Assembly: GCF_022458985.1 (NCBI RefSeq)
Contig: NC_061771.1
Location: 33,606,617 to 33,670,616 of the forward strand
DNA: 64,000 nt
Origin: Mugil cephalus
Lineage: Eukaryota > Chordata > Actinopteri > Mugiliformes > Mugilidae
Reading direction: 5' to 3'
A model generated the notes under the pieces. It worked only from the letters and a program-made list of their open reading frames with translations. It made no database searches and was not told the DNA's origin. The translations under genes were made by a program, and so were the position numbers. The first letter of the stretch is position 1, and each line of letters opens with the position of its first letter. This document shows positions 5,271 through 63,127 of the stretch, piece after piece.

Positions 5271-5393
5271 ATGACCGTCATGACAGGTCTAATGTCTTGT
5301 TTTTTTCTGACCTGACTGTGTTGGTAGCAGCTTAGCATCAGAATCAACTAGTGTGGTCTAAACACCTCTGGACCATCTGTCCCCCACAGACAC

Positions 5394-8300
5394 ATGGAGA
5401 CAGCAGATACTAACCTAGGGGGACCACAGGAGCCCAGGTTGCAGTCTGAGGAGTCGAGGCTTGGGTCCGATGAGTCCAGGATGAGGTCGATGGGCCCTCT
5501 GATCTCCTGGGAGTCAGAGCTGACCTCCATCCAGCACTCCTTGAAGTTTGTGTTGAAGCTGAAGGAGGAGTTTGTCTGTCCCGTCTGCAGAGGAGTCGTC
5601 CTCAACCCCCAGCAGAACTCCTGTGGACACATCTACTGCTTCCACTGCCTGCAAGGACTTCTGTACGAGCCACTCCACCTTAAATACACGCTACCACAGT
5701 CCACCTTAAACACTCTCATTCTGATGCAGTCACTGAGCGCTGTGGTGTTCTTGTTCTACTTTAACTGCGTTTCAGGGAGAGTTCGTCCTCGTCCAGCCCA
5801 GTTTGTCCAGTGGAGGGAGCTGCGATCACACCAGCTGAGGTTAGAGACTCAACTCAACTGGCTACTGGTCCAACTTGTTACTAAAGATAGTTGCACAATG
5901 CTCCTTTAGTTTATTCATCTACAATGAAGGGAAACATTGTCTAAAAAGAGAGAGGAGATAATGAGATTAAACGAGGCCTTGGCACAAGTTTCCAATAAAC
6001 ATCTGAATAAAGGACTTACAGAGAAACATCTTGAAGAAACCCTGAAGTCCTGTCACCTTCTTTTTCAGCTGGATGTTTGGATGTGTCATCACCTGGATGA
6101 CCCAGAACACCCAGAACATTGGATTTAATAAAGTTTTCTCCCCCCAGGTCTTTCAGGACAACTGCTGCAAACGAGAGATCTCCAGCCTAGAAGTGTACTG
6201 CACCAACTCCCCAGAATGCACCTCTGTCCTCACATTAAACCATCTGCAGGTAACTCATCCTGAAAGCTGGAAGCTGGAAGTTCTGATCGTATTGGTCCTC
6301 ATGTGCCTCTCTCTCTTACAATGTGAAGAGTATCACTAAGAAAGTGACTTAGATTAGTTAGGACGCTTAAATCTGAGCTCTGCAGGTCAAGCACTAATCA
6401 GCTTCTTGAGCTGTCACTCACTTCTCAAATGTGGTGCAGCTACCAAACAGAACACTGATGATCACAAGAAATAGTTCCCAAAATTAAACTGTTGTTTCAT
6501 AAATAACTTAACAATAACCTCCTTGACCTCCTTCTTGAGTCATTCTCCACTCCACTGGCTGAGGGGAGGAGGTTGTCATCCAAGAGTTTTCAGTTTATTT
6601 TGTTTCATTGGTCCCTCAGTGTGGTGAAGTCGTCGTAAAGCCTGATGTTGGGGGGTCTCATTCTCCAGACACAGAGAGAGCTGAAGCCAAGGAGCTCAGT
6701 GCTGGTCTCATCTGACCACATCATTATAGGAGTTTATCTGCAGCGTTTAAACCTGAGGGTTTGTTGATCATGATGTCACATGTTGTTAAGCTACTGGATT
6801 CACCTTCATCACAGGAGCTTGGGTGGTGTCAGAGGACCGGTCTGTCAATCTGATGGATCTCTGTAGCTTCTGTGGAGTAAATATTTCCGTGAAATGACTT
6901 TAATCCTTTGTCTGCAGGATCACCTTAAGTTGTGTCAGTATGAACAGATGCAATGCACCAATCCAGACTGCACCACGGTGCTACAGAGAAGGGACCTCCA
7001 GGATCACCTAACCAATACCTGTCCTCACCGGCAGGAGCCCTGTCCTCACTGCAGCCAGGTGCTCCAGCTCAGCCTGGTCCAGGTACAGTACCCATAGACC
7101 AGAGGAGTCAACTCTGCCTCTGAGTGTAGGGGTCCACATGAACTTCAACTAGTGCTGACAAACCATTAAAACCTTTAATCAGATAATCTCAGGGTTCCTG
7201 TCCATTAATCGCATTAATCATGATGATGGTTTAATCCATGTCAGTGGGTTAAGTTTGACAGCTCTTTTATCTCCTTTACTTGTAACCTTTTTGGTGATTT
7301 GTCCTTTTTGGTCCCGTTTTCTCAGGACAGGTTTCTTGTTTGATGCGAGTAAAGAACAGTTTCAGTTTCGTGTCTCTAACATACAGTTAATCTTTAGTCA
7401 TGTTGTTTAGTTAAACCAAGGGTTTCCACCCTGTGACGTGTTTGTGATGACTCCCCATTAGGATCATGTGCAGAGCTCATGTCTGGAAGTAGAGGTGGAC
7501 TGTCCTGATGGCTGCTCCCTGAATGTCCCCAGACACAAGGTGAGCCCATCCTCATCCTCATCTTCATCCTCATCCTCATTCTCATTCTCATTCTCATTCT
7601 CATTCTCATTCTCATTCTCATCCTCATCCTCATCCTCATCCTCATCTTAATCTCCATCTTCATCTCCATCTCCATCTTCATCACCCTCACCGCCATCGTC
7701 ATCCTCATATTCATCTTCATCTTCACCCCACCCTCATCTTCATTTTCATGCTCATCCTCACTCCGACCCTCAACCTCATCTTCACTCTCATCCTCATCGT
7801 CACCCTCATCCTCCTCCTCATTTTAATGCTCATCCTCACCCCCATCCTCATCCTCCAATGGGAGGAAGAGGACATGTGTCCAGTCCAGTCTCTGGTCATG
7901 AGTATCTTCAAACTGGTGCCAAGTAATGAAACATAAAATAAAAACAGCTTCATTCTCCACACGGTTTCAATTTAAAATTTAATCTCAGCAAGTTAGAGTT
8001 GGACAGATTTTAGGACGTCCTCGTAAAAGCGTTTGTATGGTTCCAGCTGCCCGAGCACAGAGAGACATGTCCCGAGGTTCATACTGACTGCTCCTATAAG
8101 AGGTTCGGCTGCTCCGTTCAGGTGAGTCCAGAACGACGCCTGAAGTAGACGTTTACTACCAGCTCTGTGCTCTGTGTCCTGGTCTCTGACACCTGGTGTC
8201 CTGTGTCCTGTGTCTTGGTGTCCTGTGTCCTTTAGGGTAAAAGAGGGAAAGTGAAGCTTCATGAGGACACCGCTGTCAATCACCACATGCTGCTGGTGCT

Positions 8301-10858
8301 GAGGAGCAACACTCACCTGGAACAACAGGTAGGTGAACACAGCTGAGGCCGACGTCTCCAGGAAACATGGGGATAGATGCAGCTGTAGCAGGATTATAAT
8401 CTGTTGATTACTCTGAACCTACTGTAGATGCTGTTAAAGGCCTCAGTATATTCCAGTTTGTCAAGAACCATTGAGGACACATTAAAACTAATGTCATTTT
8501 AGTAGTGTTGTTAAAACGAGATGATGATGATGATGATGATGATGTAAATCCATGAAACAGATGCTGCATGTAGAGAGGAGTTCACTGGAGAGAGACAAAT
8601 AAATAGTTCTGTTCTGTTCCTGGAGAGCTGCTGTTAATGGAGGACGAACACACAATGTCTTCTCTGTTTAGTTCAGGTTCATTTTGATCTCCAGACACAG
8701 AGAGATACTTCAGTCCATGAGTCCGATGGTTCAGTTGTTAGTCTGTCAACTTTACTCACTAATGAGCTCTGTCCTCTGTCAGGTGGAGGTTCTCCAGGAG
8801 GAGGCGCAGCTGAGGAGGAGGGAGGTCCAGACGGGGAGTTTACTGCTTCCTGGTCTCGAGAAGCAAATCTGTCCTCTGCTGCAGCAGAGCAACAACAACG
8901 AACACGTCGTGTCTACGGCTCAGGTTAATGCTCTTTAACCCTCCACAGGTCCAGGAACCAGATGTGGTAACTTCATTTATCAGTGAGGTTTATCGTCATG
9001 TGGTTTTCATTGAGCCAATCAGAGGAGATCAAGGAAACATTGTCAGGTCTAATCAGGGTCTAATGTGGTCTACAAGGTCCCCCTCTGAACTGGTTTATTA
9101 GGAACCATGAAGAAGAACAAGTGTCCTAATGTTGTCTAATGTGATGATGTTGATGATGTTCTAATGTGACAAACACATGTTTACATTAGTTTAAGGACCA
9201 GGAACCAGATATGAGACATTCATTCATCTGGATTTAACTCAGGAACGTTAGAAAAGTCCTACAATAACCCACTAGGGTTGAAATGTATTATTGCTGGTAT
9301 TTCAGTGAGAGCCCTGTGAATGGTTAAGGCTCGTCTCCACGTCTCCGTCTCCGGGGCGTCAGGGGGACATTCGTCTCTACCAGTCAAACTCAGGCTTGAT
9401 TTTAAAGCTATTATTAAGGAGGAGGCTGAGGTTAGTCACCATGGGAGGATCCTGTGTCTCACCTCCACATCTCTCTCTGTCTCAGAGGACACTCAGCAGG
9501 CAGGACGACGTGCTGTCCTCTGTCCAGGTGGACGTCCGGCAGGTGTCTCGGGGACTGGGTCCTACCCTGGAGGAGCTGGACCAGCTCAGACAGTCTCTGG
9601 ATGCCGTGATGCAGGAAGTGTCAACAGCCGAGGCCCTCAAAGAACACCTGGGTAAAGCAGTAGAACAAAACCTGGCCACCAGAGGGCCCCGTCTGGTCCA
9701 CAGGATGAATTAGCTTTGAATTAGCAAAAACATGCAATTTATCAATGCAGTTAATCCTAATCAGTCCACCAGGGGACGCTCTGCTTTCTGGGACACTGAG
9801 ACCAGAGTAAACAGCTGATGATATTTATAGATTGTTATGTTACTGCCCCGTGAGAGCACACTGGCCCCTGGCCTACTATGAGGTTCACCCCGTAGTTTCA
9901 GTTTCAGTTTAACATTTACCTGTTATGAGGAGATGAATTGAAACTAATCCATCTGAAACTAAATAGGGAGCCATACTTACATTTTACTGACCGGAGTCAC
10001 TGAGACAATAACATCACACTAGAGCAGCTCCTTCCAGGTAAAACATGGTCGACACAGTTATCTCAGTTATCATAGTTTATAGTGCTCTCATGATCATAAA
10101 TGGAAAATATATCAACACACAGTCAAAGGCACCAAGATTAAATTCATAGAAAGTGTTGAGATGTTCACATCAATGAGTACTTATCAGACCTGTTTCCATG
10201 GAAGCTGAAGAGGACGGACTCAGGTCCCAGGTCCCGGTGCTGGTGTCATTAGTGGTATTTTCTTCCTCCAGGGACGCTGGAGGAGAACCTGAAGCGTCAC
10301 TCGGGTCTCCTGGACCTTCACGCCGCTCAGCTCAATCTCAACAAGCAGCACCTGCAGGAGCTGGAGGCCACGTCCTACGACGGCAGACTGATCTGGAAGA
10401 TCCAGGACTTCAAGAAGAGGCGGGAAGCCGAGGTGAAAGGTCAGTCACCGTGCCTGAGCAGCGTGCCGTTCCACATCGGACGCTGCGGCTACAAAATGGC
10501 CATGAAGGCGTACCTGAATGGAGACGGCGAGGGGAGGGGCTCCCACCTGTCGCTGTACGTGGTCCTGATGCCCGGAGACTTCGACGCTCTGCTCCAGTGG
10601 CCGTTCAGACAGACCGTGTCCCTGTCGGTTCTGGACCAGAGCGGCGCCTCTAACCACCGCATCCTGAGCTTCAGACCTGACCCCACCACCAAATGCTTCC
10701 AGCAACCAGCCCCCGAGTCCGTGAGCAATGTGGCTGTAGGCTTCCCCTGCTTCATTCCCCTCAACCTGCTGGAAAACAGCCCGAACGCCGCGTACGTCAA
10801 AGACGACACGCTGTTCGTCAAGGCCAAGGTGGACATGACGGGTCTGGAGCAGCTCTGA
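5394..10858 (+). CDS. traf5: TNF receptor-associated factor 5
   Basis: Cytosolic adaptor for TNF-receptor-family signalling (CD40, LTBR and OX40 class), feeding NF-kB. Ten coding exons: 5394-5662, 5776-5839, 6148-6249, 6918-7082, 7462-7539, 8047-8121, 8236-8328, 8783-8923, 9486-9651, 10272-10858; 579 codons, close to human TRAF5 (557). The RING starts at CPVCRG (Cys62, Cys65), then SCGHIYCFHC; its last half, VCPVEG, is in the small second exon. TRAF zinc fingers follow (VFQDNCCKREISSLEVYC; LKLCQYEQMQC; CPHRQEPCPHC; HRETCPEVHTDCSYKRFGC). A coiled coil spans residues about 260-420 and a MATH/TRAF-C domain runs from IWKIQDFKKRRE to the end (RCGYKMAMKAYLNGDG, HLSLYVVLMPGDFDALLQWP, YVKDDTLFVKAKVD). 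TRAF5 rather than TRAF3 fits RCGY, LLQWPFRQ and the rcor3 neighbour. The first donor, CT|GTACGA, is weak but is the only one that restores the RING frame. Start is the only ATG after the acceptor at 5389. Confidence 0.93.
7545..7860 (+). repeat. Hexanucleotide (CATCCT/CATTCT)n tract
   Basis: A pyrimidine-rich hexamer array, purest at 7551-7648 and degenerating rightwards, begins about five bases after the traf5 donor at 7540. Frames inside it look open only because the period is a multiple of three. Confidence 0.9.
9074..9254 (+). repeat. Dispersed repeat family A, copy 1
   Basis: About 180 bp in a traf5 intron closely matches 37263-37436 in a mark1 intron, in the same orientation on the plus strand. 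Shared landmarks are GGTTTATTAGGAACCATGAA and TGTTTACATTAGTTTAAGGA. I do not recognise the class, and no coding motif is visible. Confidence 0.85.
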
Positions 10859-16200: not shown

Positions 16201-19200
16201 AAAATGATTCCTTCATACTGTCAGTCTAAAGGTGGGAGTCTCACCATAATCTTTGCAGCTGGCAGTCAGGGCTCCTCAGGAGGTCAGAGAGACGAGCAAC
16301 TCCCTTGTCTCCCAGACTGTTCCTACTTAGATCCAAGTTTTTTAGGTGGGATGGATTTAAGCAAAAAGCCGAGACCAGCAGATTGCATCCGTACTCCGTG
16401 ATGCCACAATCAGATAACCTGCAGGCAGAACAGGGAACAGGGTTAATGACAATGACTCCTTCATATTTGAACCATCCCAAGACTCTTACTCTACTAGCAC
16501 CAGCAATTGAACAAACTTCACATTCTAACATGGAAATAAATGTATGTTTACCTCAGTGTTTCCAAGCAGCATTTTTCAGCAATGACTGGAAATAACATCA
16601 GTTCATCCTGGAATTTATTTTTGCTGAGATCCAGCTCTCTCAGGTGGGAAGGATTCTCAGTTAGAGCCAGGGTTAAAGGTTTGCATCCAGTTTCAGTAAT
16701 GCCACACCGTCTCAAGCTACACCACAGGAAACACGGAAAAGAGTTTTAGCTCACACTGTAAATACAAAGCGTATCGGCTAGGACCACAGTCAGGCTAGAT
16801 CCTTCTTCAATCTGCAGGAGAGTATTTGTACTCTAACATGGTCAAACATGATGAAACAGTAAAGTTAAATTCATCTGAACCTCTGGCAGGTGCTATAAAC
16901 TTGTTTCTACTATGATAACCTTACTCTTCCCTCCCAGCTACACCAAACCCATGATTCCATGGGATGTATTACACATAGAAATCCTGCTGTGGAATATAGA
17001 CAATAACTCTCTCATAGACTACTGCACACAAAGAGGGGCTCGGAGGATTTTACCTGAGTCGCTGAAGTTTGCAGTGGGGACTTTTTAGTCCAGAAGCGAG
17101 GGGCTCTATTCCAATGTCCTGCAGTTGATTTCCACTCAGGTCTAACTCCTCCAAACCAGAAGATTTGAAGCTGAGAACTGAAGTGATGACCCTACAGCAT
17201 CTGACAGTGAGGTTACAGTCACTTAACCTGAAGTGAAGAAGAAAATGTGGGTTAACGTGTCACAACTAACACTCTTCTGCATTAAATCTCAAACTCAGAG
17301 CATCAGAGGTGTTTCTTCAATCCATATACTTACAGAGCGGTCTTTGACACTTTGAGCACTGGCACCAGCCTCTCCAGAACCTCATCTGAGCCATAGTATT
17401 TCTTCAGTTCAAAGACAGACAGGTCATCTTTCGAAACAAGCAGCACAAAGGCCAGAGCTGACCAATGAGCAGGTGAAATTTTGCTCACATCTCCAGAGCT
17501 CTGGTAGCTTTGGACTTGCTCTACTAGAGACCGGTCACCCAACTCATTGAGACAGTGGAATAGATTGATACTCTTGTCAGTGTAAGAAAGTTTCTTGATC
17601 TTCTCGTGAATGTAGTCGATGGTGTCCTGGTAGCTCTGTGGACTCCCTTCTTTAAGTCCCAGTCTGCTCTGAAGAAGTCTCTGATTTGTTTCCTGAGAGA
17701 GGCCAAGCAGGAAGCGCAGGAACAAGTCCCACTCTCCAGAGTCACTCTTCAGGGCCTTATCCACCGCGCTCTTGTGGAGGAAGATGATAAGAATTTCTCC
17801 TTCCTCTGACATCACCATCACTCCGTGGTAGAGGAGGTTCTTCTTCTTCTCTATGAAGGTCTGTAGTACATACAGAGCAGCAAGAAACTCCTGAACACTT
17901 AAATGTATAAAAGCGTAAAACTCTTGTTTGTAAAGACCACATTCTTTTCTGATGATCTGCGTACAGATTCCTGAATACACGGCAGCTTGGTTCAGATCAA
18001 TTTCACAGTCTTTCAGATCTTCTTCTTTGAAGATCATGTTGCCTTTTTGTAGCTGTTCAAATGCCAACTTCCCCAACTTCATGATCAGATGTTGGTCTGT
18101 TTCTCCTTCCTGGTAATCTTTCTTCTGTTTGCTTTTTGTCTGGACGATCAGGAAGTGTGTATACATCTCTGTCACAGTTTTGGGTAACTCGGTTTGTTGT
18201 TGATCAGTGAGGAGGCTCTGGAGAACCGTGGCTGAGATCCAGCAGAACATTGGGATGTGACACATTATGTACAGACTTCTGAGCGGCTTTGACTGAAGAT
18301 GGTCATAGATTTTCTGAGCAATAACATTGTCACTGATTTTCTTCTGAAAGTACTCATACTTTTGCTCGTCAGTGAAACCTCGTACCTCGGTCACTCTGTC
18401 GATGAACTCGGGAGGAATCTTACTGGCTGCAGCCGGTCTACTCGTGATCCAGATGGACGCGTTGCGCAGCAGTTTCCCTTTTAGTAAGTTGGTCAGTAGG
18501 ACGTCCACTGTTGTAAGCGCTGTAACACTGCGGCACATTTGATTTTTACTGAAGTCCAGCGCTAATTTGCTTTCGTCCAAACCATCAAAAATGAATAAAA
18601 CACTACAGCTTTTGTAATCTGATATTTCCAAATCATTAACTTCTTCAAAATGTTGGCATATTAAATCCTTAAGACTCAAACGCTCATCTTTTATTAAGTT
18701 CAGTTCTCTGAAACTGAAGGGAAATATGAACTGGATCCCTTGGTTGGCTCTTCCAGTTGCCCAATCATAAGTGAACTTCTGCACAGCCACAGTTTTTCCA
18801 ATGCCAGCGATGCCCCTTGTCAAAACTTTACGAGGAATGTCTTCTCCTGACAAAGGTTGAAAAAGGTGATTAAGATCTATTTTCCTCTCCTCGCTCGTAT
18901 TCCTTGAACACTCTAATTCAGTTATTTCATGTTCTCCATTAATTGCCCCGTTCTCTCCTTCTGTGATGTAGAGCTCTGTGTAGATCTTGTCTAACAAACT
19001 CCATGATGCATCTTCCTTTAATCCTTCACGGATTTTCTCTGTTTCATCTTTAAGGAAAGATTTCAGGTCATCTTGACATCTTCTGATGTTTTCTGAAAGA
19101 CCTACATACAGTAGCACAAATGTCAAGTCATTTCTTGTTTTCCTCTAAGTTAACAAAAGTTTTCAGGTTTTCAAACTATCTTACTGCAGGATGATCACAT

Positions 19201-23154: not shown

Positions 23155-23806
23155 ATGTGGAAGGTCAAACGTGAGTGTCCCATCGTTTTCACTGCATGAC
23201 TCTGGTTTTCACTCAGAAATGACGGAGTGTTGTAGAAGGTTTTGACGGACTAGAGGTTTGTTAGACCCAGAGATGGAGGATTAACGTCTCCTTTGTTTCC
23301 AGAACAATTCATTTGAACAGATGGAGATTTCATAAGGAGAGGTGGACGTGATATAAACGTAATGTTTCAGTAGTATAAACAGAAAACACCAGTGCAGACT
23401 GGATTCCCTCCTAGATACATGATTTAAGCTATAAATAATATATGACTGATATGTCTAACGTCTCTATGTAAAGGCCAGAGGTTAAAAGCCATGTTGGGGG
23501 TTAAAATAAGAACCTCGGTGGTGATCACATGGCTCATGACAGGGGTCTGTGGACCAGACCTGGAACTGGAGGTTTTGTTCTAGTTCTCCTCTCAGTGACA
23601 CTAAGGAGCAACACCTACAGATGTGTTACTGTGGCTGTGAAGAACTTTAGGGTAGAAAGACGGAATATATAAATTTACAAGGCTAAAAGAAGAGCTGCAT
23701 ACATATATTCAGACCTTTAAGATATTTCCTATTAAAATGTTTTCACTGTTTTTCTGTAGCTCCAGTCGTGTTTCCTATGGAGACAAGGTACCGGCCAATT
23801 CTGGAG
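23155..23806 (+). other. Two candidate upstream coding exons of the creatine kinase homologue
   Basis: Exon a ends at 23170 with ATG at 23155 (MWKVK plus one base). Exon b is 23760-23806, bounded by TTTTTCTGTAG and GTAAAC. Joined to an acceptor at 24525 they read in frame: MWKVKPPVVFPMETRYRPIL, then ESLVPPDP, into the CK start Met. This would add a 28-residue N-terminal extension without a clear mitochondrial presequence or signal peptide. The agreement of three phases and a TATA box is encouraging, but short exons can match by chance. Confidence 0.4.
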
Positions 23807-24546: not shown

Positions 24547-27500
24547 ATGTCCCAGTTCCACCTGAGGAGGGGTTCCCCTGAGGACGAGTTCCCTGACCTG
24601 TGCAGGAACTTCACCTGGATGGGCCGGATCCTCACCCCGGCCATGTACCGCCGACAGTTCCACCGCTGCACCCACAGCGGGGTCATCTTTGACGACATCA
24701 TCCGCCCGGGTCTTGAGGAACCAGGTGATTTAAACCATCCTGTGGAGTGGATGTAACCTATAGACATGTAGCACCACCTAAACCAGACCAGACACTCCAC
24801 AGAAATGACACACACACAAAAACACTTTAGGAACAACTCCTGAACAACTGTTGACCTGGCCTCCAAATTCCCTAGATCCCACCCCCGCCCCAATAGAGGG
24901 GCCATGTCCATCCTCTGATGAGTCGGCTCAAGAGAGACCTGCACTAGATTAGGAAGCTGGTCATAATGTTGTGGCTGGTCAGTGTATGTTCATGAAGTGA
25001 AGTCGTCCTGTCCAGTAACGTTCTCTGAATGTTTGTGCTGCAGGTGAGTGGTCCGGTCCCGTGTCTGTCGGCTGTGTAGCCGGTGATGCTGAGTCCTACG
25101 TCCTGTTCTGTGACTTCTTGGACCGAGTCATCGAAGCGTTTCACGGACACAAGGTCACCAACCAAACCCCAGAGAGCGACTTCAACTACGACAACCTGAA
25201 GGTGGCGCTGCATGTTTCAGTGATTTTAAACCAGAGAAACGTCAACATTCAGCCATGTTTAGCTTTTAACTCGACTATAAAAGTTACAGATCAGAAAGCA
25301 GCAGAACATCATCAGCTCAGATTTCATGACCAGTCCAGCAACATGGGACACATGCAGCCTACTCACGACTCAACAGTCCCTGAAGGAAACTCTGTCCTCA
25401 TTCCTACACCACTAATCACATATCTAAAGTCAGCTTCTTCACATGTACCATGTACATATAGACAATCAAAAAATGTCTCTCACTCTCCCCCAGCCAAGAG
25501 GTAAAGTGCACAGAAACAACAGATAAAGACAGACTTGTCCTAACAGTAAAGAATAACTAAAGTTGACAGGTGAAGCATTAACTAGTATTAAGAAGAAAAT
25601 AAAGAGTTCACAGTGTATGTGTATTAGTATCAGCAGACTGTTTTTCTGTATGAGGTAGAAGTTGTAATCTACAGTCAGTAACAGCAGCAAAGAGTTTCTT
25701 AAGGGAAGACTTGACAATAACTAATGATGCATCATTTCTCATCCTCTGAACCTTCAACATAGTGTCACACTAACAGACCGGTGTGTGCAGGGCGGTGACG
25801 ACCTGGACGGGGCGTACGCTGCACGCTGTGAGGTCAGCCTGATACGAAGCATTGAAGACTTCTGCTTTCCAACGCACTGCAGCAGAGGAGAGCGTAGACA
25901 GCTCCTCTCGCTGGCCAGAAGAGGTACTGCATGTCTGTATCTCCACACGGGACCTCGCACAGAGTTGTGTTGCAGAGCTGGGCTGCAGAGTCAGAGAGGA
26001 ACACGTGGTTTTCCAACCTAAAGTAGAAGGTCTGATACCAACACAGCTGCAACATCTGACTCTGATGTCTGGAGGTTCTCAGTCATCCAGGTCATGGTGA
26101 TACAAAAGGCATTTAAAAAAAAAAGACAACACTCATCTGAGTAGCTTCTTTGGTTCTAAGAGACTGGTGGGAAGGAAGAGATGGTTCCTGTTTCCCTTCC
26201 CTCTTTAAACTCCACCAGTCTCTCAGAACCAAAGACTTGGATGAAATGTCTTCAACAAACCCTCCAGGTCCAGTTCCCATTTCTTTCAGCTGGTTTTTGG
26301 GTATAACATGACCAGGTGTTCCTCCTGAATTAGCTACTTAGAACCTTCAGTCCAGACCCAGGTTCTAACCCAGCGCCTCCTCGTCCTCCTCCTCAGCTCT
26401 GCAGAGGCTGGAGGAGGAGCTGCCGGGTCGACTCCTGTGTCTGGAGGAGCTGAACCAGGAGCAGGAGAAGCATCTGAGCCTGAAGCCTCCGTCTTCCTCC
26501 CAGCTCCGCACCGGTGTGGCCCGGGACTGGCCCGATGCCAGGGCCGTCTGGTCAGTCTGGCTCCATATGTGGACAGAGGGGGTCGGACCAGGAATCACAG
26601 CTTCACATGAACCAGGGGGGTCAAACCTATGGCCCACGGGCTAAAACCGGCCCAACAGAGGGTCCAATATGGCCTGCGGCGGGATGAATTTGCAAAGAGT
26701 GAAAATTAGAAATCATCATTTTCCAATAAAATTCACACTAATTTGAAAACAACACCGAGGCCCAGAACTAGACAGCTCAAATTACCCCATTACACTACAC
26801 TGCACGTTTCAGGTTGTTGATGGAATATTATTTAAAAGAATAGTTCGACCCCCTGTGGTTAACGGTTGCTTGTGTCGTGCAGGCTGAGTGAAGACTCTGT
26901 GGTTAACCATTGCTTGTGTTGTGCAGGCTGAGTGAAGACTCTGTGGTTAACCTTTGCTTGTGTTGTGTAGATTGAGTGAAGACTCTGTGGTTAACCGTTG
27001 CTTGTGTTGTGTAGATTGAGTGAAGACTCTGTGGTTAATGGTTGCTCGTGTCGTGCAGGCTGAGTGAAGACTCTGTGGTTAACCTTTGCTTGTGTTGTGT
27101 AGACTGAGTGAAGACTCTGTGGTTAACCGTTGCTTGTGTTGTGTAGATTGAGTGAAGACTCTGTGGTTAATGGTTGCTTGTGTCGTGCAGGCTGAGTGAA
27201 GACGACAGCCTGGTGGTCTGGGTCAACATGGAGGACCACCTCAGGCTGGTGTCCACGCGGAACGATGCCAACGTGGCCAAAGCTTTCAGATGGATCTGCA
27301 TCAACCTGCAGAAGGTCAGTGATGGGTCGGCTTCACATTAATGCACATTACTCTAAAGTGAAGCCAAACCTAGTAGACCTCCTCATGGTGGCTGGAGGCT
27401 CCAGTATAGGTCATAAGCTCCACCCCCTCCATGTTAGTGGGTGGGGCTTGGGTCAAACTGAAATGATATGTTTTGTTTTTGTTATAGAAACAGGACGTGC

Positions 27501-28780
27501 CCAATTGCCATGCCAACTGGTCCATAAATACTTTTTCTTGCAAATGTATTTGTATTTTGTTTGTATTCAGTATGTCAGCTTATACCATGAAGTTGTACAT
27601 TGGTTCTGGGTCAGAATGACCAGAAGAAGAGCTGTAAACTGTAAAATGTGTCAAACCCAATGGACCCAGTCAGCACTGCGTCAGCCCACATGGCTCTAAA
27701 TAGATGAAGGATTTTTAAAAGCATGAGCTGACTGTTTGCCTGTAGCTGGAGGAGTTCTACAGGGAGCTCAGACACCCGTTCATCTGGAAGCAGCAGCTGG
27801 GGTGGGTGACGAGCTCCCCGGCCGACGTGGGGACAGGTCTGAGGGTCAACGTCCACCTCAAACTGCAACTCCTCCCCAAACACAGACGGCTCCAGGACGT
27901 CCTGAAGAGACTGAGGATCCGCATGGACAGCACAGGTACACAGAGAGTAACCTGTAACCTTTAAATACATCTGTAGTACAGGCCAGGACACATGTGTTCA
28001 TTTCATAGAGACCAAGACACTCCCAGTCCAGACCTGGTCCCTGACTATTTCTAAAGCCTCAGAAATTAAAATACACCACCTAATTGTGTGTTACACACAT
28101 TTAGCCAACATCTGTGCAGCTAATTCATTTACATTGTTCACTTCTGTTCACATTTACACCAAACTGTAGGACAACAGGAAGGTCCATCTGAAATCCAAAT
28201 TTGCTTCACTTTCCATCTGTAATTGTTTAGTTTCTCATTTCTTTCAGAATTTTATCAGTTTCTGCATAAAAATTACTCCAAACATCGACAGAGTTGATCA
28301 CTACTGATGTGTTTAAGTTTCTCCAACGTGGGGTAGATTCTGTTCTACAGTCTGAGGAATCAATAAGTCTCAATCTGAAGTATTTAGACTTTTCTCTTGT
28401 TTTTTTATCTGACAAGGGACAGTGCACGTTAATGAACACCTATCCAGGCAGCAGTAGAGGTAAATATGCCAGAGTATAGCAACAATGCTATTTAGCATCC
28501 TCAGACTGACTCGGCTTTACAGAAAGATCATTTAGTCCAAAGGTGTCCCCTCTAAAGGAGGACCTGGTCCTGAGACCATGTTCAACAGAATATGAGAGCC
28601 CTTTCGTCTCATTTCCCAGAATCCTCGGGGCTGCACTGTGTGAGCAACGCGGCGACCTTCGGCCAGAGCGAGGTGGCGCTGACCCAGCTGGTGGTGGACG
28701 GGGTCAAGCTGCTCATCGCCATGGAGAAGAGGCTGGAACGCAACCAGGACATCGACGAGCTCATCCCCACACAGAAGTAG
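24547..28780 (+). CDS. Divergent creatine kinase homologue, predicted pseudoenzyme
   Basis: Creatine kinases transfer phosphate between ATP and creatine. Exons 24547-24724, 25044-25201, 25791-25923, 26397-26550, 27191-27314, 27746-27935 and 28620-28780 keep the CK intron positions and encode 365 residues (CKB has 381). Clear family blocks: [94 protein letters not shown] and a C-terminal TQK. Key residues are changed: reactive Cys283 is Ser (codon 27815-27817), Arg130 is Glu (25830-25832), Arg132 is Ser (25836-25838) and Arg320 is Asp. The loop after 320 is six residues shorter, and the first Glu of NEED is Met. Arg236, Arg292 and Glu232 remain. The frame is intact, so it looks retained rather than decayed. 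I expect little or no kinase activity; a structural or regulatory role is inference. The start could lie further upstream at 23155. Confidence 0.9.
24730..24988 (+). mobile_element. Non-autonomous Tc1/mariner derivative, left end truncated
   Basis: Matches the element at 32490-32964: shared AGACATGTAGC, TGTTGACCTGGCCTCCAAAT (relic of the transposase VLTWPPNSPD box) and right terminal repeat TCATAATGTTGTGGCTGGTC. It begins almost at the first CK donor and lies in that intron. The left terminal repeat is not recognisable. Confidence 0.75.
26148..26235 (+). repeat. Hairpin-forming inverted repeat
   Basis: Arms CTTTGGTTCTAAGAGACTGG (left) and CCAGTCTCTCAGAACCAAAG (right) are nearly perfect reverse complements around a 40-bp centre. 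The flank GATGAAATGTCTTCAA resembles a common fish interspersed repeat. It sits in a creatine kinase homologue intron and is probably a MITE remnant. Confidence 0.65.
26839..27190 (+). repeat. 44-bp minisatellite carrying duplicated 3' splice sites
   Basis: Seven full 44-bp units (starting 26883, 26927, 26971, 27015, 27059, 27103, 27147) plus a partial one, ending exactly at the acceptor of the CK exon at 27191. Each unit contains TTGTGTNGTGYAG followed by a copy of the first bases of the exon (GCTGAGTGAAGAC) and TCTGTGGTTAA. All eight AGs are intact. Confidence 0.93.
27340..27445 (+). repeat. Dispersed repeat family C, copy 1
   Basis: CTCTAAAGTGAAGCCA, GGTGGCTGGAG, TTAGTGGGTGGGGCTTGGGT; the reverse complement of 31885-31975 matches it. 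A common fish interspersed repeat by appearance, class not assigned. Confidence 0.6.
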
Positions 28781-28895: not shown

Positions 28896-28901
28896 AATAA
28901 A
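28896..28901 (+). terminator. Creatine kinase homologue polyadenylation signal
   Basis: AATAAA lies 115 bp after the TAG stop of the creatine kinase homologue and is followed by a T-rich stretch with GGGGTTTTAATTTG. Confidence 0.6.
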
Positions 28902-33792: not shown

Positions 33793-50748
<16,956 letters not shown>

Positions 50749-55225: not shown

Positions 55226-58200
55226 CGACACGTGTCCTCTCACCTTCCGTGGAGTCCTCTGGAAGCAGAGAGGGACACAATGAACAGGGTTAGTACAAGA
55301 AACAGGAGCAGAAAAAGAAGAGGTGGTAGTATCAGTAGTATCAGTAGTAGTAGTAGTAGTATCAGTAGTTAGTATCAGTAGTTAGTATCAGTAGTTAGTA
55401 GCAGTAGTATCAGTAGTTGCAGTAGTTAGTAGTATCAGTAGTTAGTATCAGCAGTAGTATCAGTAGTTAGTAGTATCAGTAGTTAGTATCAGTAGTAGTT
55501 AGTATCAGTAGTAGTTAGTATCAGTAGTTAGTAGTATCAGTAGTAGTTAGTAGTATCAGTTGTATCAGTAGTTAGTAGCAGTAGTATCAGTAGTATCAGT
55601 AGTTAGTAGTATCAGTAGTAGTATCAGTAGTATCAGTAGTAGTAGCATCAGTAGTAAGTAGTATCAGTAGTAGTATCAGTATCAGTAGTAGTATCAGTAG
55701 TATCAGTAGTATCAGTAGTTAGTATCAGTAGTCGTATCAGTAGTAGTAGTATCAGTAGTATCGGTAGTATCAGTAGTATCGGTAGTAGTATCAGTAGTTA
55801 GTATCAGTAGTATCGGTAGTAGTATCGGTAGTATCGGTAGTAACCAGCTGACTGGCGTGGGTGCGTCTGACTCTGGTTGTTCACAGTGAAACCTGTTGAT
55901 CCTATGAACCTATGGACACGGGGGACGTCCCTCTCACCTGTTCCCAGAGGGTCTCCGCCACCTTGTCGATGACCCCGCCCACCTCCCGGAACTCTCCGGA
56001 GTACTTGACGTAGGCCCAGACGCAGAGCGCCGTCAGGGCCACGCCCATCACCAGGTTACAGAGCGTGGCCACGGAGCTGACGCCCAGGAAGCCGGTGACC
56101 AGCGAGGCCACGTACATGGCCAGCATGACGGCGAAGAGCGTGGCGGGGGTCCGCGCCGCGTAGAAGATGTTCTTTCCGTCGTTGTGTTTGGTGAAGTTGG
56201 CGTAGGCCTCGTCCAGCTCCGCCTCCAGCTGCTCCTGGTAGCGCCGGCAGAAGTCCTCGCCACCCATCTTCTTCACCGAGCGGAAGTGTCGCACCGACGC
56301 CTGGCGCAGCTCCAGGTGGCGCCGCTCCAGCTCCGAGGGCGACATGTAGGGTCGGTCTCCACCGCAGACCTGAGACCAGGACACCGGTTCAAAGAAGGAC
56401 CTGGACCTAGAGTCTCTCCCTGATCCAGATGTTTATACGAGCCACCGTCTCCTTTTACCTCCTGAGACCCTGTGTCCTCATACGAGGACATCAGATTTTA
56501 GGTGTGTTGCAGCTTATTCTGCTTCATTTAGACCCTGTGTCCTCATACGGGGACATCAGATTTTAGGTGTGCTGCAGCTTATTCTGCTTCATTTAGACCC
56601 TGTGTCCTCATACGGGGACATCAGATTTTAGGTGTGCTGCAGCTTATTCTGCTTCATTTAGACCCTGTGTCCTCATACGGGGACATCAGATTTTAGGTGT
56701 GCTGCAGCTTATTCTGCTTCATTTAGACCTATTGTCTTCATACGGGGACATCAGATTTTAGGTGTGTTGCAGCTTATTCTGCTTCATTTAGACCCTGTGT
56801 CCTCATACGGGGACATCAGATTTTAGGTGTGCTGCAGCTTATTCTGCTTCATTTAGACCCTGTGTCCTCATACGGGGACATCAGATTTTAGGTGTGCTGC
56901 AGCTTATTCTGCTTCATTTAGACCACGTGTCCTCATACGGGGACATCAGATTTTAGGTGTGCTGCAGCTTATTCTGCTTCATTTAGACCCTGTGTCCTCA
57001 TACGGGGACATCAGATTTTAGGTGTGCTGCAGCTTATTCTGCTTCATTTAGACCTTGTGTCCTCATACGGGGACATCAGATTTTAGGTGTGTTGCAGCTT
57101 ATTCTGCTTCATTTAGACCCTGTGTCCTCATACGGGGACATCAGATTTTAGGTGTGCTGCAGCTTATTCTGCTTCATTTAGACCTGTGTCCTCATACGGG
57201 GACATCAGATTTTAGGTGTGCTGCAGCTTATTCTGCTTCATTTAGACCCTGTGTCCTCATACGGGGACATCAGATTTTAGGTGTGCTGCAGCTTATTCTG
57301 CTTCATTTAGACCTATTGTCTTCATACGGGGACATCAGATTTTAGGTGTGCTGCAGCTTATTCTGCTTCATTTAGACCTGTTGTCCTCATGTGGGGACAC
57401 CGCTGCCATCTACTGGCAGTGACGGTCAATACACTTGTTTATTTATGGTTATTAACTTTTTCTCGTACTCGTTTGAGGACGTTGGGATCTCATCGTTTCC
57501 ACTTCTGCATTAAAATGAACAGTTTTATATTCTGGTCCACACTGACGACTATTATTACACCATAATACACAGAGAAATAACGCTCAGTATTAGTATTTCC
57601 TACTAATCCTAAACACCTAAACATCTTAATCATCTTAAAGAAATTCAGATTCCAAACAAAAGCTTGGGTCTCAGCTTGAGTTTACACTTTATGTTTTATT
57701 TCTCAGTTACACACTGAGACCTAGATTATTATTTATTTAGTTTTACCACTGGCTGCAGGTACAACATCACGTTTTCACTGAGCATGTGACACATAAAACG
57801 TATGAAACCTTAATCCGACCTTAAATCTTAACCCTTCCATCATCACTGTTCTCTGGCTCTGAACATCCATCCCCCGTCATGGTCTTACCTGCTCCATGCT
57901 TTTGTTGTACACGTCTTTGGCTCCAGCTACCGCCGCCAGGTTATTAGCTTCAGCCGTTGCCTAGGTAACGGAGGATGAAAGACTCTTCAGTCTCGAGTTA
58001 AACCTAAACTAATAATAATAACTGCTAATACTGTTGAACACGTGAATAACGGGATCTGAGACGTTGTTCTACATGGATTATTTAACGTGGTCCAGGGTCT
58101 GAGGGGCCCCTCTGGGACCTGGACTCACCTGCAGCATGGACTTGGGGTGAGGAAGCTCCTCCCCCTGGTAGATCTTCATGTAGGCCTGGAAAGACAAACA

Positions 58201-61200
58201 TGCTTCAGTGCAGAGGGAACGTTTATGACGGAGGGACACGTCTCAGACGAGCGTTTTTTTACTCGGTCTCACCTTGAAGTAGTGCAGCAGGTCTCTGCAG
58301 GTCACTTTGACTCCTCCGATCTCCTTCTCCACCAGGTTCTCCGGAGCCAGCAGCACAGGGACCAGGTTCACCAGCTCCTTCTTGAAGTCATCGTCAATGT
58401 CTGAGGCAAACGCACAAGGAACGACTCAGGGATCAGACACAGGAGACACGTAGGAGACACGTAGGAGCCCAAACTACACTGATCCGTCTCATTTCATCTT
58501 AACTCATCATCATTATTATTATATTCATAGGTCTTGGTTCACCAGGCTTCTTCAGACCCTGGATAATGACGCCTCCACCCTCAGGACTTTTTACATGTTC
58601 CTAAGATCAGAACTAAAATGAGGAAGAAGGTTTTTAGGTTTTCTGATCCGTGGAACATTTTACAGCTGGAGCTCAAGCACCTGGTATCTCTGAATGTGTC
58701 TAAGTCCATGATAAACCCGCTTATATTCAGCCTCCATGAGTGAAACTGTCTGAATGGGACTGAATGAACTGTCTCTCCTTCAAAAGAGCTCAATGGGACA
58801 AACCTGTTCAAACAAAGGTTAGTTTGTTAAATATAGTAAATATTCTCCTTCTCCTCTTCTTGGGACTAAAACAGTGCGTAGTTGCTCCCCTGGTCCCGTC
58901 TCACCTCTGAGCCGGCCATCGAAGTGGGGGTTGGTGGCCACCCTGAGGCCGGGGTGGGGCAGCAGGAAGCAGCTGATGTTGGAGAAGCAGGAGTGGATGT
59001 GTTTCCTGACGTTCTGCAGCTCCTCGTGTTGGTTCTGCTTCACCTGAACGGGAATAAAACGCAGGTCAAGTCCACGCGGCTGAAGGGACGTTTGGAAAGA
59101 CGTGACCCCCCCACAGCACAGATGGTCCCACTCCACTCTGTTAGAATCAGGATCTATCGGCACTGGACAGCACAGGGCTCCTGCAGGTTTGAACAAGGGA
59201 CGTTTAACTTTTTAAGACCTACACAAAAAACTACAACTAAAGAATTACTTTCAAAAGGAATTCTGAGTCAGATTTTCCTTATTTGTAGTCATTTAAGACT
59301 CGACTACATGTAATTTAAGACCTACAATGTAAAATAAGGCCTTTAGACTCTGCAGAAGCCCCGCCCCCTGCAGGTGACACGACAAACAGCACTCAGCATC
59401 AGCCGTTAAAGGTCCTGAGGATGCGTTCAGGGCCCAGACAGTAACAGACATCTGGATAAGACTAAGGCCGGTTAGTCTCTCAGTCTGATTGCACCTGTAG
59501 CGCCTCCCGGAGGCAGCAGGTGGAACAGACGCTGGTCTGAGCTGTGTTTGTAGACGGGGTCCAGGGATGATGATCCTCCTCGTTTAGAAACAAAGTGTAA
59601 CAACAGAAATAAAGCAACGATTAATAGAAGCTGAGTTTAAGGTGTTAATGAAGAACCTGGAACGTTTGGACCTGGACTTCTTCTCCCGAGCGTCCACGTA
59701 TTTAAAAGTGTGGACTCTCTGAGCTCAGCCCTTTTTCTGTGAGGTTGAAATGACAGCGGTGACTGACTGACCTGCAGACGTTTCTCCAGGAAGCTCTGGC
59801 CTCCCTCCAGACCGTAGGGATGTTCGTAGGGGTAACTCCAGTCTCGGATCAGGAACATCAGAGTCTGGAAACAGGGACACATTTCAACCACTGACCATCA
59901 CACACAGTCAACAGACAGTCACACTTTAGATTTCTCTCTCTGGACTGTCGACTGTAAACCAACTATCAGCACAACCTACCAAACACTTTGGTCTCATAGT
60001 TTGATTCCTTTGGTCCTCCTCAAAAATGAATGTGTAACTGTGTTGGCTTTCTGCTCTCTGCTAAACACGAGACTAGGAAGACCCAGCGCCTCCAACGCCT
60101 CCAACGCCTCCAATATACAGTCACTGGGTTAGAGAAGTCACCTCTCACATCACGTTGGAGAAAATCAGACACACACTCAGGGGTCGACTAGAAAATGTTC
60201 TAAGATCTGGAGCAGATGATATAAAACTACTGTCAAATATCTTTTAGTCTACACTGTCAAAGCTGGAAGTCTGGCATCTGGAGGAGGAGGAGGGGTTGTT
60301 TTTTTGTTTTGTTTGACTTATGTCCAAACTCAATAAAAAAAAAAAAACAAGCTCAAACTTGACAAAACTTCCAGTGAACCAGTGACTTTAATGCAGCTGT
60401 TGGTGGTTTTTGCTTTTCTTCAACCGAGTCACTGGTTTAAACTTCTCCATGTTTAAATCCGTCATCATCGCGTTTAAAGGATCAACTTCTTATCTGATAA
60501 CTTAACTAACAACTTATTAACTTATCTGACAACTTAACTAATAACTTAACTAATAACTTAACTAGTAACTGAACTAGTAACTTAACTAGTAACTGAACTA
60601 GTAACTGAACCAACAACTGAACCAACAACTTAACTAATAACTTAACTAACAACTTAACTAACAACTTAACTAGTAACTGAACTAACAACTGAACCAACAA
60701 CTGAACCAACAACTTAACTAACAACTTACTAACAACTTAACTAATAACTTAACTAGTAACTGAACTAACAACTTAACTAATAACTGAGCTAATAACTGAA
60801 CTAATAACTGAACTAATAACTACTCAGACTAGACTCATGTGGAAAGAAATCCACTTCTTACACTATTTATTTGCAACTGATACGACTGATGCACAAAAGC
60901 TTTGATGTTTGAGTTAAAATGTTTCCATGAGCTCGTCCCTAAAGGAAAAGGTTATTTCTATGGTTGTAGTTTATTCTCCTATGACTGACTCTCACATATT
61001 CTCTAAAAACACAGAGTAGAAGAGCAGACGTGAACCTGAAAAGGCTTCTCGTAGACCTCCTCCAGAGCCAGCCGTCCGTACTCCGTGAAGAGCTGAGGAG
61101 AGAAAACAGAAAACACAGGGACTCAGTGTAAAGCTTCAGCCTCCAGGACACCAGCTCACAGGACGTCAGCAGGACTGGACAGAAGAGACGAGAGACGCTG

Positions 61201-62612
61201 AACAAGACCATCAGCATCAAGTAACAAACACAAGTCTGATCCGAACACACTGACCCTGGAACAAAGCGTCTGTAAACGTGACGGGGACAAACCTGGAGGT
61301 GCTGCAGGTCGTCCTCCTGGACGTTCTGGGACAAGTTGTACACCTGAAACACAACAAACCAGGAGCCTTCGTTGTTCAGGGACTAAACAAACATCTACAC
61401 TAGTTTTTACAGTGGACAAAGAGAACCCAGATAGACACGGGACATGACCCCATGAATATTAATGACATGTTCATGTCCCTGAAGCCTCGTCCCACTGTGA
61501 TGGACAGGTGTTTGTGGGTGGACCAGTCCTCGTCCTCAGTCTGTCTGACTCTCTGTGGATTATTTGTGGCTTCCAGACTCTTTAGAGATGGTTGTGGAAC
61601 CTTTTCCAACTCTTTTTCTGAGCTCCTCACAAAGCTCCTTTGATCTGTTGTCATCACACACTTCAACACAAACATGAGACAAATCCCTGATTCACAGAAA
61701 CTAAACCAGGACCTGAGTCTCATCACATTCATGGAAACTCTCCTGGACTCTGGTTTAATCGTCTCTGAGGTGGAGAATCGGCTCATTTTAGTCTCATAAT
61801 CAGCTCCGTGTGTTTATTTGTGAGGATTTAATGATTCACTCAACTCACGATTCAACACAATTTCTGATTAAAGGGGTTAAAACATATAAGATGTTAAGAT
61901 ATAAGCTGTGTACTAGATACTAGACACTACACCTCTAACTACACCCACGCTGCTGCTACGTCTTTCTTTAAAAAACACCACATTTACACTTATACCATGT
62001 TATAGTATTAGTACTTTAACTTTAGCTTGTAAATCTTTGTAAATAAAACCTTCTATTTTGTAGATACTTGTGTTTTTTTGCACTGAATGATGAAAATAAA
62101 GGCCGTTCTGTTCTGTTCTGTTCTGCTCCATCACGTGAACTCATAACTAGATCACGTCCTCTGCTGCATTTTTCCTCTCAGCTCATTTGAAAGGTCTCAG
62201 ATTGTTTCGGATGTTTAACCGTCTCTCGATGCATCGTTACGTCCATGTGTATCTGTTTTCTCTTCGTGTCGTTGTGATGCAGAAACGGTTGTGATGCTGA
62301 GTGAGTCTGACCTGGACCGAGCTGGTCATGGTGCTGAGGGCGAACAGCGTGGCGCAGTCTTTGATGGTGGACTGGCTGTCGAACGCCCCCTGGGTGTCGA
62401 TCAGCAGAACTGCGACCTGCAGGAAACCACATGTTACCTGGAGCTCGTCCCAGAGGAGGAGGCGCTGCCACACTGACCTTGCTGCCGTCTGGCTTCTCCA
62501 CCACGAACACCTCGTTCCAGGCCAGGATGCCCGTGGTCTCCCTCTCACAGCCGCCCCGCCACGAGAAGCCGGTCAGAGGCTCCTCCTCTCCCCCGATCCA
62601 CGACCCGGACGA
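54973..62612 (-). CDS. atl2: Atlastin-2-like ER GTPase (5' exons outside window)
   Basis: Dynamin-like GTPase that fuses ER tubules. Exons in transcript order: 62612-62478, 62416-62312, 61343-61293, 61092-61036, 59864-59772, 59043-58905, 58400-58273, 58185-58129, 57960-57889, 56369-55938, 55258-55244 (microexon), 55083-54973; about 464 codons in frame. Visible: [19 protein letters not shown], switch [16 protein letters not shown], the GTPase RD motif [32 protein letters not shown], three-helix bundle [20 protein letters not shown], the membrane hairpin around [20 protein letters not shown] and [20 protein letters not shown], and the tail [30 protein letters not shown] and [10 protein letters not shown] favour ATL2 over ATL1 and ATL3. 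The C-terminus is RTPRK then [17 protein letters not shown], ending NNNVKKKN. The P-loop exon (GxxxxGKS) must lie beyond base 64000. Confidence 0.93.
55325..55845 (+). repeat. TCAGTAGTA trinucleotide-type array
   Basis: About 520 bp of AGT and ATCAGT units (AGTAGTATCAGTAGTTAGTA) in the atlastin intron before the microexon, preceded by a (CAA)n run at 55195-55227. Confidence 0.92.
56463..57400 (+). repeat. 65-bp minisatellite in atlastin intron
   Basis: About fourteen highly uniform 65-bp units containing GTGTCCTCATACGGGGACAT, CAGATTTTAGGTGTGCTGCA and GCTTATTCTGCTTCATTTAG. GTCCTCATACGGGGAC has complementary ends. It begins about 90 bp from the exon at 56369. Confidence 0.95.
60490..60835 (+). 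repeat. 12-bp AACTAGTAACTT array
   Basis: Imperfect 12-bp units (ACTAACAACTTA, ACTAGTAACTGA, ACCAACAACTGA) over about 340 bp in an atlastin intron. Confidence 0.92.
61491..61676 (-). mobile_element. Tc1-like transposase fragment, second copy
   Basis: Matches 15603-15784 in the same orientation: GATGGTTGTGGAACCTTTTC and CTTTTTCTGAGCTCCTCACA on the plus strand. Sequence to the right (AACACAAACATG) also agrees. It is a short dead fragment in an atlastin intron. Confidence 0.8.
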
Positions 62613-63127
62613 CTGCACCACAACGACACAACGACAAGAGGAAACCTGGGGTCAGTGTTTTCTACGGACTGAAAGACCAGTAACACAACAGAGTAATAAC
62701 CGATAAATAACAACAACTCCAGACTTTTAATATTTGTTTTAGAGCAAAGAACAAATAAATCAGGAGTAAGTTTACATTTAATAAATGATCCTTTAAAAAA
62801 AACGTGACATTTCTTAATAAAAATAGTTGTAATTTGGGCTCCTGGTTCTGTCTCATCGACCATCGGGAGGATGTTCAGCCCGTTAACGTCAGAGTCCTGG
62901 TTAAATCTAGGTCACGTCTGCTCCTGCTCCTGCTCAGTTTCCTTTCAGGAAACGTGTCAAAAGAAAACGGGTATTTACTGTAATTAATGTAAAAATAGAA
63001 GAACTGGACGACAGGACTTTAACACGGATCATAGCATTAAATAAATGAATAAGTGTCCGGCTCATTAGTTTTCTTATTTTGTAGCATTTTCTTTTTTTGT
63101 CAATGTTTTGCTGTAAGATAATAAAAG

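Follow-up and report, generated by a model that had tools for sequence, protein, structure and literature searches.

Accounts of the vertebrate creatine kinases (CKs) usually list two types in the cytosol and two in mitochondria, and a gene that keeps the CK scaffold and lacks much of the CK active site raises the question of what it is, how it arose and what its product may still do. Such a gene lies on the plus strand of a 64,000-nucleotide stretch of the Mugil cephalus genome (contig NC_061771.1, positions 33,606,617 to 33,670,616; hereafter the window), at window positions 24547-28780. An earlier reading of the DNA letters (the original prediction) had described it as an intact but catalytically defective CK homologue, and this description stood up when we considered its reading frame, its residue losses, its GC content at third codon positions (GC3), a neutral simulation and a branch codon model. 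We think it probable that the CK homologue is a MARK1-linked ohnologue of CKM and CKB, now a fast-evolving pseudoenzyme and most likely a non-catalytic subunit with the CK fold. The likely MARK1-linked origin within the CKM/CKB set had been missed by the earlier reading.

A cytosolic creatine kinase homologue beside a MARK1-like gene

The seven coding exons are open, as predicted, and join in frame to 365 codons followed by a TAG stop, with GT-AG borders at all six introns (Table 1). The intron phases (1,0,1,2,0,1) agree with those found in the genome's four other cytosolic CK genes. The start codon is uncertain: upstream, a candidate exon (23760-23806) contains an in-frame ATG at 23777, from which the protein would be 17 residues longer. 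The protein contains both phosphagen-kinase Pfam domains above the curated cut-offs (PF00217, 133.8 bits with a cut-off of 22.4; PF02807, 78.5 bits with a cut-off of 25.7), in agreement with the conserved CK scaffold noted earlier. Compared with solved structures, it matched 49 distinct PDB sequences and scored 310-324 bits against cytosolic CK-M and CK-B (rabbit CK-M 324 and human CK-B 319 at the top), 290 bits against 1vrp (M chain) and 223-233 bits against mitochondrial CKs. We conclude that the CK homologue is a real protein-coding gene whose product belongs to the cytosolic creatine kinase subfamily of the phosphagen (guanidino) kinases; this observation is far beyond chance.

A mitochondrial CK relative was considered and is disfavoured, the scores against mitochondrial CKs being about 90 bits lower than those against CKM and CKB. 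The mitochondrial CKs, which have three loci in this genome, belong to the same family, and no leader peptide was apparent by eye in the predicted N-terminus of the CK homologue. The likeness to CKM and CKB comprises the fold family, the length, the exon structure and phases, a MARK gene as tail-to-tail neighbour, the conserved C-terminal part and parts of the active site (E232, R236, R292 and H296). Unlike CKM and CKB, the homologue has lost S128, R130, R132, C283, R320, D335 and R341, and both substrate loops are altered. Its identity to the four other cytosolic CKs of the genome is 42-45%, whereas the ckm and ckb genes are 80-83% identical among themselves.

Searching the whole genome (635 Mb, 24 contigs) with PF00217 gave 26 exon matches at eight CK loci. 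By sequence, those on contigs C17, C21, C15 and C9 and the CK homologue are cytosolic, and those on C19, C8 and C10 are mitochondrial. A search for the KA1 domain found seven places, six of them MARK-like. The new observation is that four of the five cytosolic CK genes each have a MARK gene as tail-to-tail neighbour, which for the CK homologue is MARK1-like. In each of the four cases a MARK-type KA1 exon stands downstream on the opposite strand within about 5 kb, at distances of 1.1 kb for ckb on C17, 3.9 and 4.5 kb for the two ckm genes on C15 and C9, and 5.0 kb for the CK homologue. A MARK partner was not among the matches for the second ckb (C21) or the three mitochondrial CKs, nor was a CK partner among those for the MARK genes on C1 and C13.

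The KA1 domain of the CK homologue's partner is identical to that of human MARK1 at 95 of 106 positions and to that of MARK3 at 82 of 95. This domain and the copy on C13 are both MARK1-like and are nearest each other (104/125). Beside the second MARK1-like gene, in C13:14.200-14.230 Mb (three of seven stretches searched), four CK protein queries revealed no CK remnant (best E 0.07, not read as CK). The KA1 domains on C9 and C15 form a divergent pair; by exclusion we take these two genes to be MARK4 and the one on C1 to be MARK2. In human, CKB lies by MARK3 (14q32) and CKM by MARK4 (19q13), and TRAF5 and MARK1 are both on 1q32-q41; in the window, TRAF5 is likewise the CK homologue's neighbour on its other side.

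Some other CK loci differ in exon arrangement. An extra intron splits the first coding exon of ckm on C9 (L012:4056-4383) after HNNHMAK. For ckb on C17 there are two candidates for an alternative first coding exon (L009:4206-4398 and L009:4789-4966): one is of the usual MPFGNTHN type, and the other, starting MAKLTLKRLLAEDEFPDL, has 178 coding bases, as does exon 1 of the CK homologue. In the mitochondrial CK gene on C19 (minus strand), an exon beginning DHFLFDKPVSPLLT is present in two copies (L013:6809 and L013:5758), which may be mutually exclusive exons.

In the phylogenetic tree, a fully supported branch parts the mitochondrial CKs from all cytosolic CKs, the CK homologue included. Its own branch measures 3.48 changes per column, about 12 times the length of the longest path among the other cytosolic CKs (about 0.29); the remaining terminal branches measure 0.016-0.14. 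Six approximately unbiased (AU) tests were run on its placement, representing five distinct splits: the constraint naming the three mitochondrial CKs (p 0.435) and that naming the seven other cytosolic CKs (p 0.436) describe one unrooted split, and for this reason neither speaks for a mitochondrial origin.

For the origin of the gene, the tree adds nothing to what the genomic neighbourhood suggests. Like CKM and CKB, the CK homologue adjoins a MARK paralogue, as a member of a CK ohnologue set from the two early vertebrate rounds of genome duplication (2R) should. Because cytosolic CKs adjoin MARK genes and the CK homologue adjoins a MARK1-like one, it is most likely the MARK1-side sister (ohnologue) of CKM and CKB from these duplications, which would also date it. 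Alternatively, the gene might have arisen from ckb or ckm within fish, as a third-round or local duplicate that landed by mark1. Its best identity is indeed with CKB (45%), the AU test does not reject a grouping with both fish ckb genes (p-AU 0.26), and of 15 sites that tell M from B, six are B-like, three M-like and six neither. Against such a copy stands the tail-to-tail MARK gene, an arrangement shared with both ckm genes and one ckb, with the MARK gene here nearest MARK1; the genome has six MARK genes in 635 Mb, and a copy would be very unlikely to arrive by chance within 5 kb of one and in that orientation. We consider a fish-specific copy improbable.

Catalytic residues and selection on the coding sequence

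Residues were compared in a MAFFT alignment of the CK homologue with ten other CKs (seven cytosolic and three incomplete mitochondrial). The proteins were assembled by hand: ckm from C9 has Q for K at one already variable column, ckb from C21 contains one X, and the three mitochondrial sequences have X-filled gaps, one of them being without its N-terminal part. The lists of catalytic and dimer sites were drawn up partly from passages of PMC12387690 and PMC12467219. The alignment bore out the predicted C283S, R130E and R132S changes, and it also showed S128R, E231M, S285A, N286D, D335C, R341T, V325M, D62E, H66E, I69P and R96F. R320, which had been read as replaced by Asp, is missing in the MAFFT and HMMER alignments alike; its loss therefore holds, and the choice between an Asp and a deletion hinges on where the gap is placed. 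H191 is lost in the MAFFT alignment and paired with a His in the HMMER alignment. The loop after position 320 is six residues shorter and the 60s loop before VGCVAGD is remodelled, both as described before. V72, R135, W228, E232, R236, G288, R292 and H296 are kept.

A passage of PMC12387690 gives the phosphate pocket of CK-B as Arg 130, 132, 236, 292 and 320. Two of these five arginines (R236 and R292) are left in the CK homologue, so that the combination of Cys283 with all five, by which we recognised an active CK, is absent. An excerpt of PMC11336976 describes C283S CKB as enzymatically inactive. Since three of the five pocket arginines are gone and the C283S change is described as inactivating CKB, the CK homologue has very probably lost normal CK activity.

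The losses extend well beyond the active site. At columns that are invariant in the other CKs the homologue keeps 95 of 200 residues, and at non-invariant columns it equals human CKB in 65 of 166, showing that CK-invariant positions have changed nearly as freely as variable ones. The catalytic subset is kept at 8/24 sites and the remaining invariant columns at 87/176 (Fisher p 0.19). The claim of catalytic crippling stands as far as the lost residues go, whereas a selective loss of catalytic sites, tried as a separate proposition, does not, its excess over other invariant sites being not significant; we conclude that CK-type constraint has been relaxed broadly. Kept positions are mildly clustered (85 runs compared with 100.6 expected, p 0.016). 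On the dimer side, for which our list is short, D54, R148, R151, R152 and the ARDWPDAR motif are kept; rows 209 and 210 of the alignment hit the R and D of RDWPD through a one-residue shift in numbering, and the D and W of the motif are both kept. D54-R148 is named for the dimer interface in a passage of PMC12387690, which also states that CKs work as dimers.

The changes in the loops could mean that the protein is a working phosphagen kinase for a new guanidino substrate, with rebuilt substrate loops and altered catalysis. The two changed loops correspond to residues 59-72 and 319-333, which a passage of PMC12467219 describes as flexible loops that differ between open and closed rabbit CK, and the retained E232, R236, R292 and H296 would suit an enzyme of this kind. 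However, R130, R132, R320, S128 and C283 are gone and about half of the CK-invariant sites have changed. Moreover, according to excerpts of PMC12467219 and PMC12387690, active-site arginine clusters are also found in an arginine kinase and in bacterial McsB, and phosphoryl transfer by the CK fold is therefore expected to need them. A new-substrate kinase strikes us as a quite remote prospect.

Several measures indicate that the coding sequence has been maintained. GC3 is 0.814, compared with a GC content of 0.435 in the introns and 0.446 in the flanks, and two CK paralogues have GC3 values of 0.761 and 0.785. When a CK coding sequence was allowed to decay neutrally to 45% identity, 0 of 300 simulations remained free of stops (mean 8.4 stops). 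We then fitted a branch codon model to the five cytosolic CK genes found in this single genome (363 codons), with a separate omega (dN/dS) for the CK homologue. Omega was 0.14 on its branch and 0.05 elsewhere. A value near 1, which would be at odds with the original prediction, is contradicted by the rejection of omega = 1 for this branch (2ΔlnL 31.2), in a comparison of paralogues rather than orthologues. Among fixed values, 0.05 fitted as well as 0.14, while 0.3 and 0.5 lost 1.7 and 6.1 log units. Naive pairwise estimates for the CK homologue against its four paralogues gave dN of 0.50-0.53 and dS of 0.77-1.04.

A decaying or recently dead gene with a frame intact by luck would explain the very long branch and the similar change at invariant and variable sites, and a very recent loss of expression alone would escape these tests, but 365 codons without stop or frameshift, intact splice sites throughout, a GC3 of 0.81 amid a neighbourhood of 0.44 GC, the absence of stop-free neutral simulations and the rejection of omega = 1 leave this explanation scarcely credible. 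A decaying pseudogene was rejected on these grounds. The gene combines an intact coding sequence, purifying selection and missing catalytic residues, the features of a pseudoenzyme, as seen in one species; judged from its sequence, it is an intact, selected and predictably catalytically defective CK homologue.

Features of the window

The features are collected in Table 1. The 44-bp tandem repeat copies the splice acceptor of intron 4 and so places acceptor-like copies ahead of the real one.

Table 1. Positions of the CK homologue and associated features in the window
Feature	Positions	Strand	Remarks
TRAF5 gene, upstream neighbour	5352..10858	+	MATH exon 10253-10858; RING match 5352-5909 below Pfam cut-offs
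Coding exon 1	24547..24724	+	M1 to P59 and first base of G60; start of remodelled 60s loop (EEPG)
Coding exon 2	25044..25201	+	Remainder of remodelled 60s loop (EWSGPV); VGCVAGD motif kept
Coding exon 3	25791..25923	+	S128R, R130E, R132S; CSRGERR kept
Coding exon 4	26397..26550	+	DHFLFDKP region shortened; ARDWPDAR kept
44-bp tandem repeat, 8 copies	26853..27203	+	Runs from late intron 4 to 13 bases into exon 5
Coding exon 5	27191..27314	+	W228, E232, R236 kept; E231M
Coding exon 6	27746..27935	+	C283S, S285A, N286D; R292, H296 kept; R320 lost
Coding exon 7 with TAG stop	28620..28780	+	Shortened 320s loop, D335C, R341T; conserved C-terminal part
AATAAA, candidate polyadenylation signal	28896..28901	+	116 bases past the stop of the CK homologue
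MARK1-like gene, tail-to-tail with the CK homologue	33793..45200	-	KA1 exon 33793-34116; kinase exons reach about 45.2 kb and may extend beyond

The upstream neighbour was identified as TRAF5 by scores of 328 and 200 bits, compared with 178 for TRAF3. MATH domain matches in the genome (28) were not resolved to TRAF types and were not used for synteny. The stretch from TRAF5 to the CK homologue also contains an open frame of the fish NLRC3-like kind (17330-19144, minus strand), with FISNA, NACHT, NOD2 winged-helix and NLRC4 HD2 domains. Within the MARK1-like gene there is a long repetitive stretch (42432-44834) in which several frames are open for hundreds of codons. Tandem repeats of low complexity at 46531-48578 can be read as a repeated peptide in one frame and are probably not a gene. 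Past the MARK1-like gene lies an atlastin gene at 55902-62651 (minus strand), which scored 542 bits against atlastin-1, its best PDB match, and 530 against atlastin-3.

Possible role of the CK homologue and its place in the family

We propose that an ancestral CK-MARK gene pair was multiplied by the early vertebrate genome duplications, after which the protein encoded beside MARK1 diverged far more than CKM and CKB. It now lacks the reactive cysteine and much of the arginine clamp that binds phosphate, and neither substrate loop has its normal form. The homology and the retention of several dimer-side residues suggest that the CK fold, and perhaps the dimer face, would be retained; normal phosphate transfer would not be expected. 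The protein might be a non-catalytic subunit, pairing with CKB or CKM to titrate, tether or tune them, or it might offer a CK surface to another partner. A subunit or scaffold is the most economical suggestion because the fold appears to be kept, CKs are dimeric and kinase-dead CKB has cellular effects on overexpression: C283S CKB promotes epithelial-mesenchymal transition in colon cancer cells, according to work cited in a passage of PMC8551525. This laboratory mutant has the same C283S change as the CK homologue but is designed, while the CK homologue is a separate natural gene with many further losses. Pairing with CK subunits is a tentative assignment; some other scaffold role would have a slightly less than even chance.

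A number of points weigh against an ohnologue that became a non-catalytic subunit. In the AU tests, placements of the CK homologue with CKB, with CKM, with neither, with the two fish ckb genes and with one of them all went unrejected (p-AU 0.23-0.44). Naming MARK genes by KA1 has modest power: the domain on C17 is marginally nearer MARK3 (84/95) than MARK1 (90/105), the KA1 references covered MARK1 and MARK3, and the kinase-domain scores of the CK homologue's partner differ little (MARK1 548, MARK3 543, MARK2 535, MARK4 527). Because of saturation at synonymous sites and a poorly constrained branch length, omega for the CK homologue has an upper bound of about 0.3 and no useful lower bound, and one common omega for all branches is not rejected (2ΔlnL 0.15). 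The remaining E232, R236, R292 and H296 may allow weak or altered activity. The dimer-residue list is short, and the gene was studied in one species, so that its substitutions could be peculiar to Mugil cephalus.

Among the matches listed in the open-licence literature, none appeared to describe such a CK gene. Taken further, the CK homologue may represent a third vertebrate cytosolic CK lineage beside MARK1, kept in fish as a dead regulatory subunit that works with CKB or CKM to tune or place the phosphocreatine supply, lost in mammals, and overlooked through being annotated as an ordinary CK; in this full form the proposal is speculative and rather unlikely. If true, the CK family would gain a third cytosolic lineage with its own genomic address next to mark1, and the family's history would change; the lineage can be sought immediately in the genome of any fish. 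A CK homologue that occurs naturally and lacks much of the catalytic machinery would help to part the scaffold or subunit roles of the CK fold from its enzyme roles, a question that is now approached through the laboratory C283S mutant.

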